A stretch of 20,074 nt of DNA, taken from IMG/VR virus record IMGVR_UViG_3300013005_000217, positions 1-20,074 of that record; one strand, given 5' to 3'. Each line of letters begins with the position of its first letter. Position 1 is the first letter of the stretch. Shown here in pieces: positions 5,211 to 12,230 of this stretch. A program made the translations under genes and the position numbers. The stretch comes from a virus. The notes beneath the pieces are model-generated. The model made no database searches. It had not been told where the DNA came from and saw only the letters and a list, made by a program, of their open reading frames with translations.

Positions 5211-5382
5211 GCCCTGCGCGCTGGCCGCGCGTGACCTCGCCACGAACGGGGATCTCGCGCGCGCATACCTCGATGCCACCGAATGCGTCGATGAGTCGTC
5301 GCTGAAGCTGCGGGCTATTCGCGAACTTGCGGCCTGCCGGCTGCAGACAGAGACCAGGCGAGGCACGCGACCCACCCGATGA
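5092..5382 (+). CDS. Rz1-like outer-membrane lipoprotein spanin (o-spanin)
   Basis: This gene is encoded in a different frame within and beyond Rz. ATG 5092 has GAGGG at 5079-5083, 8 nt upstream; ATG 5104 is an alternative start. The 96-residue product has a signal peptide ending in the lipobox LTAC (residues 18-21), so Cys21 should be lipidated. The mature part contains further cysteines (CPAIP, EPCALAARDL, TECVDES, AACRLQ), a pattern common in P2 LysC-like o-spanins. The C-terminus (RAIRELAACRL) is also typical. Its last 68 bases overlap the 3' end of the opposite-strand Imm gene. Confidence 0.85.
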   Translation: MRSRMIPLLATGLASLSLTACGSRLVVIEQCPAIPVALTEPCALAARDLATNGDLARAYLDATECVDESSLKLRAIRELAACRLQTETRRGTRPTR

Positions 5383-5530
5383 AGGTCCAGCCGAGGAACA
5401 GGTTCACCACCGCGATCGAGTAAACGTTCGGGTGCTTGCGTCCCTTCGCGATCCACCACGGCAGCAGGTAAATCCACAGCAGGAAAACCAGCAGCAGCAG
5501 GCCGCCGATCGAGTCGATTCCGAATCCCAT
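5315..5530 (-). CDS. imm: superinfection immunity protein (Imm family membrane protein)
   Basis: This 71-residue protein starts at ATG 5530 with GGGAG (5536-5540) 5 nt upstream. Two hydrophobic spans are seen, near residues 9-27 (GGLLLLVFLLWIYLLPWW) and 37-58. Between and within them is the family signature 'YLLPWWIAKGRKHPN ... AVVNLFLGWTFIGWV', typical of the Imm_superinfect family named for T4 Imm. Such proteins sit in the inner membrane and block DNA entry of related phages. The gene is convergent to Rz1 and isolated from the early operon, as expected for a lysogenic-conversion moron expressed from its own promoter. I could not assign a convincing -35/-10 pair. Confidence 0.85.
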   Translation of the reverse strand: MGFGIDSIGGLLLLVFLLWIYLLPWWIAKGRKHPNVYSIAVVNLFLGWTFIGWVACLAWSLSAAGRPQVRE

Positions 5531-5555
5531 AACGTCTCCCGAAAGTGTCCAAAAT

Positions 5556-5588
5556 AAAAAAGCCGGTACCTGATTCTATTGGCTTTTT
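5556..5588. terminator. possible bidirectional terminator hairpin
   Basis: AAAAAGCC (5557-5564) and GGCTTTTT (5581-5588) form an 8-bp inverted repeat with a 16-nt loop, A-rich on one side and T-rich on the other. It lies just past the lysis genes and could stop late plus-strand transcription before the attachment site. The stem has only three G-C pairs, so the call is weak. On the minus strand it lies in the leader of the Imm gene. Confidence 0.35.
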
Positions 5589-5654
5589 CCCGGCCTGAGT
5601 CCGTAAAGTATTGGACACTGCGCGGGGGTCTTTTCCCTGATATTCTGCGGCCTT

Positions 5655-5719
5655 GCGCCCGTTCGGCTGTCAGGCTTCGAACCTGAGGGTCGGGAGTTCG
5701 AATCTCTCCGGGCGCGCCA
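5655..5719 (+). tRNA. degenerate tRNA-Arg(UCG) lacking the D arm
   Basis: The 65-nt element folds as follows. Acceptor GCGCCCG (5655-5661) pairs perfectly with CGGGCGC (5709-5715), followed by discriminator G and encoded CCA. The anticodon stem TCAGG/CCTGA (5670-5674, 5682-5686) carries loop CTTCGAA with anticodon TCG. The variable loop is GGGTC, and the T arm is GGGAG-TTCGAAT-CTCTC. Only eight bases (5662-5669) replace the connector and D arm, which normally take about 19. The identity matches proteobacterial tRNA-Arg. It is probably a vestigial copy kept as the attachment site and not an active tRNA. Confidence 0.55.
5670..5719 (+). other. attP: attP core: 3' half of a tRNA-Arg gene
   Basis: The block from the anticodon stem to the CCA end is intact and lies 70 bp from the 3' end of the integrase gene, the standard position for attP of tRNA-targeting tyrosine integrases. 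Integration at the host tRNA-Arg(UCG) would restore the host gene's 3' half. The exact core boundaries cannot be set without the host sequence. Confidence 0.65.
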
Positions 5720-5787
5720 CTTTTCAATGACTTACACCATCTCCGCGTGCCTCGCTTGGCCCGGAAATATTGGACGTCCAAAAAAAC

Positions 5788-6774
5788 TCACCGCAACGGG
5801 CGCACCTTCACCGGCTTCGCGACGTAGAACCGGCGCGTCGTCGCCTGGTCGGAATGACCGAGCCGTTCCTGCGCATCCGAGACCGTGTCCGAGTCGCTCG
5901 CCGACTTCCGGCGGATGTCGTGGAAGGTGAACGACTCAACCCCGCCCGCGATCGCCTTGCGCATCAGCCGCTGCCAGATCGCCGAGAACCCGCTGCCCGT
6001 GTACCGCTTCCCGCCGGCCGTCTTGACGACATGGTGGCGGGGCAGCTGCGGCGTCAGTCGCCGCGCGCGATCGAGCACCGCCTCGAGGTCCGGCGTCCGC
6101 TGGATCAGCAGCCCCGCACCCGTCTTGCTGGTGCGCACCTCCACCCCGTCCGCCTTCACCTGGTCCCAAGTCAGCGCCAAGAGATCACCCCGGCGCAGTC
6201 CCGTCAGCAGCGCGAGATCCATCGCGATCTTCATGCGTTCGGCTGCGAGCTCGCGGACCTGCGCGAACTCTTCATCCGTGACGTATCGCATGCGCTTCGT
6301 GCGCGGCAGGCGCTCGAGCTGGCGCACCGGATTCCGTGTTGCAAGCCCCCAGCGGGCGGCCTTCTGCAGCACATGCCCGAGCAGCTTCACTTCGTGCCGG
6401 GCTGCGGTCGGCGCTGCCGAACCGTCCGGGCCACGACGGCGATCGAGGTACTGGTAGAGCTGGGCGACCTCGAGCTCGTCGGGCGCCATGTCGCCGAACA
6501 CCGCCTGCAACCGCCCGAGCTGCGCGGTCTCGTTTACCCGGGTCTGCGGGCTCCGCTTGAGCGGCAGCACTTCGGTCCGGTAGCGTTCGATAACCTCGCC
6601 GAGCGTCCGGCCTGACCAGGTCGTCGTGACCATGCGCCCGTAGGCCGCAAGCGCCGGCGCGAGATCTCGCCCGAGGTTGTGCCAGCGCCCCGCCTGGTCG
6701 ACGAAGAAGTAGGCACCCCGCCGCAGGTACATACGGCGCGGCAGGTGCCGGTCATGCTTTCGCGATCTGCCCAT
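5788..6774 (-). CDS. int: tyrosine-type site-specific integrase
   Basis: The start is placed at ATG 6774 (MGRSRKHDRHLPRRMYLRRG), the usual N-terminus of this subfamily; an in-frame ATG at 6816 is less likely. The 328-residue protein has an arm-binding N-terminus, a SAM-like core-binding domain (about 55-145) and a catalytic domain. Catalytic residues visible are Arg194 (LTGLRRGDLLAL), Lys217 (TSKTGA), His285 and Arg288 (FHDIRRKSAS), His307 (LGHSDQATTRRFY) and nucleophile Tyr317. It should recombine the phage attP with a host tRNA-Arg gene. It is the last gene of the left operon, and its 3' end points at attP as in lambda. The upstream DUF4224 gene overlaps its start by 23 nt. Confidence 0.95.
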   Translation of the reverse strand: MGRSRKHDRHLPRRMYLRRGAYFFVDQAGRWHNLGRDLAPALAAYGRMVTTTWSGRTLGEVIERYRTEVLPLKRSPQTRVNETAQLGRLQAVFGDMAPDELEVAQLYQYLDRRRGPDGSAAPTAARHEVKLLGHVLQKAARWGLATRNPVRQLERLPRTKRMRYVTDEEFAQVRELAAERMKIAMDLALLTGLRRGDLLALTWDQVKADGVEVRTSKTGAGLLIQRTPDLEAVLDRARRLTPQLPRHHVVKTAGGKRYTGSGFSAIWQRLMRKAIAGGVESFTFHDIRRKSASDSDTVSDAQERLGHSDQATTRRFYVAKPVKVRPLR

Positions 6775-6979
6775 CGAGCACCCCGAAGTTAGGTTCTTTG
6801 CGGGCCGCCGCAGCACCGGCTCCGGAGACCATCCTACGCGACATCTCTTGAACAGCCACCACCGGCTCGCTGAGGCCGTTCATGGTGAACTTCCAGCCGT
6901 TCCGCGCAAGCCAGCGCGCCTGTGCGGACGGTCGCCGGTAGCCGGTCAGCTTCGCCAGTTCTGCGGAACTCAGGAACAC
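6752..6979 (-). CDS. DUF4224 protein, excisionase candidate
   Basis: GTG 6979 is preferred because GGAG lies 8 nt upstream and family members begin MFL; GTG 6988 is possible but lacks a site. The roughly 75-residue product has the DUF4224 pattern: FLSSAELAKLTGYRRPSAQARWLARNG, then WKFTMNGLSEPVV. DUF4224 proteins are small phage proteins found next to integrases, with a winged-helix or MerR-like DNA-binding appearance. A recombination directionality role is inferred from that position and the overlap with int. The tail after residue 45 (VQEMSRRMVSGAGAAAARKEPNF) is less typical. Confidence 0.8.
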   Translation of the reverse strand: MFLSSAELAKLTGYRRPSAQARWLARNGWKFTMNGLSEPVVAVQEMSRRMVSGAGAAAARKEPNFGVLDGQIAKA

Positions 6980-7230
6980 TCGACGCACTCCACGATCCGG
7001 ATCTCGTCGCCCAAATGCAGCTGCAGCGCCGACTCGGCCGCCGGGCCGGTCAGGTGCACCACCACCGACGCGCCGGTCTTAATGCGCCGGACGCTGCGCA
7101 CCGTGCCGGTAGCGCCGCGATCGACGTGGAAGGCACCGCGGCACTTCGTCGAGCAGAAAGCCTGCTGGGGCCGCGCAGGGACGAACAGCGTCTGGCAGTA
7201 GGCGCAGGCTCTCATCTCGCCCTGATTCAT
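6970..7230 (-). CDS. small zinc-binding protein, function unknown
   Basis: This 86-residue protein starts at ATG 7230 (ATGA overlap with the gene upstream). It has a treble-clef or zinc-ribbon-like N-terminus: CAYC at residues 9-12 and FCSTKCR with Cys26 and Cys30. The rest is a beta-like domain (VRRIKTGASVVVHLTGPAAESALQLHLGDEIRIVE) ending in CVEC, another potential metal pair. The N-terminal 'CxxC...F...QxFCSxKCR' resembles zinc knuckles in phage and bacterial DNA-associated proteins. The function is unknown; co-transcription with int and DUF4224 points to early phage physiology. Confidence 0.75.
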   Translation of the reverse strand: MNQGEMRACAYCQTLFVPARPQQAFCSTKCRGAFHVDRGATGTVRSVRRIKTGASVVVHLTGPAAESALQLHLGDEIRIVECVECS

Positions 7231-11576: not shown

Positions 11577-12230
11577 TCAGATTCGGTCGGACTGCTTGGT
11601 AACGACGCGGCCGAGAATCGAGGCGGCCTCGTCGCAGCGCTTGTCGGGATACAGGCGCTTGTCAAAATTATCGGATGACAGGAACCACTGGCCGGCGTCG
11701 CGGCGCAGGCGCTTGATCACGCACTGGCCCTCGTAGTTCACGGCGAACACCACCCCATCCTGCGGCTGGATGTCCGCGAGATTGATCACAACGGTGTCAT
11801 CGCCCCAGAGCCCGGGCTCCATCGAGGAGCCGCTCACCTTCATCGCGATTAGCTTTTCGGCGCGCAGTCCGTTGCGCAGCAGCCATTCCCTGCGAAACAC
11901 GATAGGAGGAGCGTCGTCGTCGTCCTTGAACTCGACGGTGTAGCCGCAGATCCCCGCCTCGAGCTTGAACCGCGCGCGGCGGACCCGCTCATAGTGGTGA
12001 TCGAGATCGCTGGCCGTGTCGGGAGCATGCTTCTCATCGCCAGTCAGCAGCCACTCCGAGCTGACGCGCAGCACGCGCGCGAGATCCGTGAGCTTCATCA
12101 GGTCGGGGTTCGAGCGTCCGCTTTCCCACTCCGCCACTGATGCGCGATTGATACCGAACTCGTCGGCGACCTGTTGAAGGGTCAGCCCGAGGAGCTTCCT
12201 GCGCTGCCTGATTCGTTCGCCAATAGTCAT
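11577..12230 (-). CDS. CI/C2-like phage repressor with S24 autoprotease domain
   Basis: This 217-residue protein starts at ATG 12230. An N-terminal Xre-type HTH (residues 4-37, ERIRQRRKLLGLTLQQVADEFG ... SVAEWESGR) binds operators. After a linker, the C-terminal LexA-like S24 domain carries Ser136 (SGSSMEPGLWGDD) and Lys173 (GQCVIKRL) as the catalytic dyad. A92-G93 (LEAGIC) is the most plausible self-cleavage site. It should keep the lysogen quiet and be inactivated after DNA damage through RecA. It is divergent from the Cro-like gene, and its 3' end runs toward PL. I could not identify its own promoter securely. Confidence 0.93.
   Translation of the reverse strand: MTIGERIRQRRKLLGLTLQQVADEFGINRASVAEWESGRSNPDLMKLTDLARVLRVSSEWLLTGDEKHAPDTASDLDHHYERVRRARFKLEAGICGYTVEFKDDDDAPPIVFRREWLLRNGLRAEKLIAMKVSGSSMEPGLWGDDTVVINLADIQPQDGVVFAVNYEGQCVIKRLRRDAGQWFLSSDNFDKRLYPDKRCDEAASILGRVVTKQSDRI

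Follow-up and report, generated by a model that had tools for sequence, protein, structure and literature searches.

A D-armless tRNA-Arg(UCG)-like element at a phage attachment site most likely combines a conventional attP with a coincidental acceptor strand

Results

Genes around the attachment site

The window, that is, the whole stretch of DNA analysed here, is an IMG/VR virus record of 20,074 bases classed as linear. From left to right it carries tail-fibre genes, an exonuclease-like gene, the attP region, an integrase, an excisionase, a CI-like repressor and replication genes. The integrase and excisionase are directed leftward and the replication genes rightward. PHROG matches support the following assignments:

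5788-6774, minus strand: tyrosine integrase (PHROG integrase phrog_1, E 2.9e-42; alignment to relatives)
6752-6988, minus strand: excisionase (phrog_4764, E 3.3e-13)
11577-12230, minus strand: CI-like repressor (phrog_4, E 1.1e-42)

The integrase reading frame is open to 6816, and alignment identifies a start at 6774 as the better fit to relatives. The gene for the CI-like repressor points to a temperate lifestyle. The attachment site has phage genes to its left and right, so we read it as attP and not as the end of an integrated element. Across the 20 kb of the record, which is possibly incomplete, ARAGORN called no complete tRNA gene.

A small hydrophobic protein is encoded next to attP (5315-5530, minus strand). 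A 48-bp stretch at about 5368-5415 has 87-90% DNA identity to mycobacteriophage genes, among them several with an annotation as superinfection immunity proteins. This is an unexpectedly wide spread, given that the integrase relatives of the phage are found in Gammaproteobacteria.

Anatomy of the tRNA-like element

Positions 5655-5719 read as tRNA-Arg(UCG) without a D arm, with an acceptor stem that pairs at 7 of 7 positions. The parts below were identified by direct reading, to which the Rfam model and shuffled sequences were added for the 5' acceptor strand:

5655-5661, plus strand: GCGCCCG, the perfect complement of the acceptor 3' strand
5662-5669, plus strand: TTCGGCTG, 8 nt in the place of the D arm
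5670-5674 and 5682-5686, plus strand: anticodon stem TCAGG/CCTGA
5675-5681, plus strand: anticodon loop CTTCGAA with anticodon UCG; probable 7-bp crossover (overlap) region, judged from the anticodon-centred attP type (PMC4383910)
5687-5691, plus strand: variable loop GGGTC, 5 nt
5692-5708, plus strand: T arm GGGAG-TTCGAAT-CTCTC
5709-5715, plus strand: acceptor 3' strand CGGGCGC
5716 and 5717-5719, plus strand: G73 and CCA

The anatomy and coordinates given in the preliminary description are thus correct, and the covariance-model search that it had proposed returns 41.1 bits for the element with the Rfam tRNA model (gathering threshold 29). ARAGORN calls no tRNA at 5655-5719, and the complete cloverleaf with D arm that a functional phage tRNA needs is absent there. 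RNA of the element folds more stably than shuffled sequences (z -2.4), with pairing within the 3' half contributing to this stability. A scan limited to sigma-70-like promoters found none in the surrounding 600 nt (5300-5900).

The attP core and its host target

The 3' half of the element is identical to a host gene and defines the core of the attachment site:

5670-5719, plus strand: attP core, the tRNA-Arg(UCG) 3' half from anticodon stem to CCA, 50 nt (host identity; restoration in silico)

We sampled 296 genomes from one bacterial order, that of a host genome carrying a related integrase. The core matches the host tRNA-Arg(UCG) gene at 50 of 50 positions in 16 of these genomes, and 11 further genomes match with 1 or 2 mismatches. 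Host tRNA-Arg(UCG) genes carry GCGCCCGTAGCTCAGCTGGATAGAGCA directly before the matching segment, and when this host 5' half is joined in silico to window positions 5670-5719, ARAGORN calls a complete tRNA-Arg(tcg). At a related locus in a gammaproteobacterial genome (L012), a complete tRNA-Arg(ACG) directly adjoins a 52% identical integrase, an arrangement that fits the expectation for a restored tRNA end.

Sites that hold the 3' part of their tRNA target, with crossover in the anticodon loop, form a standard attP class (PMC4383910). The window shares with the anticodon-centred tRNA attPs (Islander, PMC4383910) a host-identical 3' tRNA fragment, a tyrosine integrase adjacent to it and a target that is restored, here in silico. 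It differs from that class in the perfect 5' acceptor strand that happens to precede the fragment. Mycobacteriophage tRNA-dependent lysogeny likewise uses a tyrosine integrase, with attB inside a host tRNA gene. In that system, however, a core of about 10 bp does not rebuild the tRNA, and the phage brings a complete tRNA of the same isotype (PMC10865867); in the window, by contrast, the tRNA is rebuilt through a 50-bp identity and no complete tRNA gene is present. The sequence gives solid grounds for reading 5670-5719 as a conventional attP of the anticodon-loop type with tRNA-Arg(UCG) as target, as the preliminary description had it; no part 3' of the D arm is missing.

A repeat scan of the region around the core, with direct reading for the palindrome, suggests candidate arm-type integrase sites:

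5546-5552, plus strand: TGTCCAA, candidate arm-type site, P side
5611-5617, plus strand: TTGGACA, candidate arm-type site, inverted relative to that at 5546
5770-5781, plus strand: TTGGACGTCCAA, a palindrome, candidate arm-type site, integrase side

In the integration that we propose, the integrase and excisionase would act on attP, with recombination by the tyrosine integrase between the phage site and the host tRNA-Arg(UCG) gene, probably at the anticodon loop. One prophage end would then join the host 5' half to the phage 3' half, rebuilding a complete tRNA-Arg, and the other would join the phage left flank to the displaced host 3' half. The GCGCCCG strand would need no function in this scheme.

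The upstream strand in relatives and in a base-rate set

All attPs of related integrases that we compared keep the same 3' fragment and have other sequence at the place of GCGCCCG, the pattern that the preliminary description had tied to a chance match. This holds at L002, L004, L009, L014, L148, L153, L155, L157, L158 and others; additionally, 7 further attPs of UCG type lack GCGCCCG and form at most 5 Watson-Crick pairs there. The closest integrases are at most 66% identical over the full length, or 69% over part of it, among viral contigs, and 52-53% identical among genome contigs. Relatives at up to 69% integrase identity are too far away to show whether the GCGCCCG segment is conserved. 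The exact D-less element, GCGCCCGTTCGGCTGTCAGGC, is carried by no other viral contig, and the pattern GCGCCCGN{4,14}CAGGCTTCGAACCTG was absent from all 369 genomes of a sample of the class.

As a base rate we assembled 3' tRNA fragments with CCA around relatives of the integrase and from tRNA-pattern searches. After 12 complete tRNAs were taken out, 95 sites remained, which are partly related loci rather than 95 fully independent ones. The best Watson-Crick complementarity between upstream flank and acceptor averages 3.74 pairs over the 95 sites and 3.75 in dinucleotide shuffles. A 7/7 Watson-Crick match occurs at one site, the window itself, where 0.22 are expected (P 0.2); the expectation among the 95 rises to 1.6 sites if G-U pairs count. 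These means and the single perfect site indicate that attPs have no general tendency to form an acceptor stem. For this site on its own, shuffles give P 0.007 for a GCGCCCG in the 40 nt upstream. Thus, the match is rare singly, but with 0.22 such sites expected in 95 it is unremarkable for a site picked for having the strand.

Chance easily yields a tRNA-like 5' completion. When shuffled flanks were joined to the 3' half of the window, ARAGORN called a complete tRNA-Arg in 336 of 2000 (17%). It also does so at two real attPs (L009:834-911 and L231:4913-4993), whose 5' halves are unlike the host tRNA 5' half; these calls are likely false positives. Relatives without a host-like 5' half still score 24.9-27 bits with the Rfam tRNA model.

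Other tRNA-like stretches

A looser D-less pattern matched 89 stretches of viral contigs, and those read out were unrelated except for one odd tRNA-like stretch. This stretch (L076:5900-5980), in a phage tRNA array, resembles tRNA-Arg(ACG), but its D arm is replaced by 8 nt and its variable region is long; ARAGORN passes over it although 23 genes are called in the locus. Next to another integrase (L160:1704-1766), a stretch has a D arm, a T arm and an acceptor stem, and a short palindrome, CGTTAATTAACG, replaces the anticodon arm. A third, of 107 nt (L153:5090-5196), scores 47.5 bits as a tRNA; it has D and T arms, and its middle region is long and atypical.

Discussion

We suggest that GCGCCCG is most likely a coincidental match in the GC-rich flank of attP, and neither a working nor a once-working part of a tRNA. 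The opposite proposal, that the element functions, would have a D-armless RNA or cruciform act in integration, or an RNase P and tRNA 3'-processing site form at the attR end. The full 7-bp acceptor stem and the stable fold speak for such a role, the latter in part through pairing that lies within the 3' half. Acceptor complementarity at the shuffled level across the 95 sites, the absence of the strand from relatives and the lack of a sigma-70-like promoter in 5300-5900 speak against it, and we consider a functional element very improbable; the special structured attachment site and the tRNA-Arg mimic raised in the preliminary description are likewise not supported. A coincidental strand also admits a refinement. 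The nine relatives named above carry a motif, [GC]TTAnGCnCnAGAGAG, at a fixed distance of 23 nt from the anticodon loop and outside the tRNA identity, which may be a site for the integrase or an accessory factor. If GCGCCCG were a derived form of this motif, acceptor-like GC-rich sequence would be likelier at that place, which is compatible with coincidence. The window sequence CTTGCGCCCG is in register with CTTATGCCCG of L155 and CTTACGCGCG of L153 and keeps CTT and GCCCG in the motif register, the flank fits the profile of the motif family at P 0.024, and that profile lifts the chance of GCGCCCG at its place from 0.0002 to 0.0014. However, the conserved A and AGAG are missing from the window, whose score is -4 bits, against +12 to +17 for true members in leave-one-out scoring, so that we hold derivation from the motif to be rather unlikely.

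The strongest competitor to coincidence, though itself on the doubtful side, is that the element is what decay has left of a copy of the entire target tRNA gene. An ancestor would also have taken the 5' half, perhaps through imprecise excision or through recombination with the host locus, and deletion would later have removed the D arm, since only the 3' half is needed. In an alignment anchored at the anticodon stem, GCGCCCGT plus TC(G)GCTG matches host GCGCCCGTAGCTCAGCTGGATAGAGCA at 14 of 15 positions with two deletions (P 0.0014-0.002 against shuffles), the best alignment to a host 5' half among 22 attPs of Arg type, and a position-matched, ungapped 20-nt comparison with host tRNA upstream regions gives a weak P of 0.03. 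The decay proposed in the preliminary description keeps this much in its favour, but the match is short, and its P rises to about 0.04 once corrected for the 22 sites, before allowing for the selection of this site for the very feature in question. The D remnant TTCGGCTG is ordinary by itself, with a 6/8 ungapped match to the host D region that 6.5% of window 8-mers equal. Compared locally with host tRNA upstream regions, the flank does no better than shuffled sequence (P 0.85), and no other fragment in the 95-site set has such a 5' copy. We also considered capture of a host promoter along with the tRNA 5' end, as TATTCTGCGGCCT precedes GCGCCCG, and rejected it: L002 has a similar 15-mer about 105 nt before its fragment, with no tRNA 5' end, the best local similarity to 27 host upstream regions does not exceed that of shuffled sequence, and there is no sigma-70-like site. 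Both the decay alignment and the motif register are short matches, and closer relatives are needed to separate these readings further from a coincidental strand.

Mobile elements produce partial tRNAs, which are known to give rise to false tRNA calls (PMC9897764). The present fragment resembles those in that a mobile-element partial tRNA scores in a covariance search, and differs in lying in a phage attP instead of at the end of an integrated element. At an attP, neither a tRNA-like score nor a perfect acceptor stem counts as more than weak evidence, because any 3' tRNA half gives the bulk of the signal and chance sequence in the flanks supplies the rest often enough. The base rate from the 95 sites offers a usable yardstick for similar claims. 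Were the element functional after all, it would give tRNA mimicry a new role, that of a part in prophage integration.
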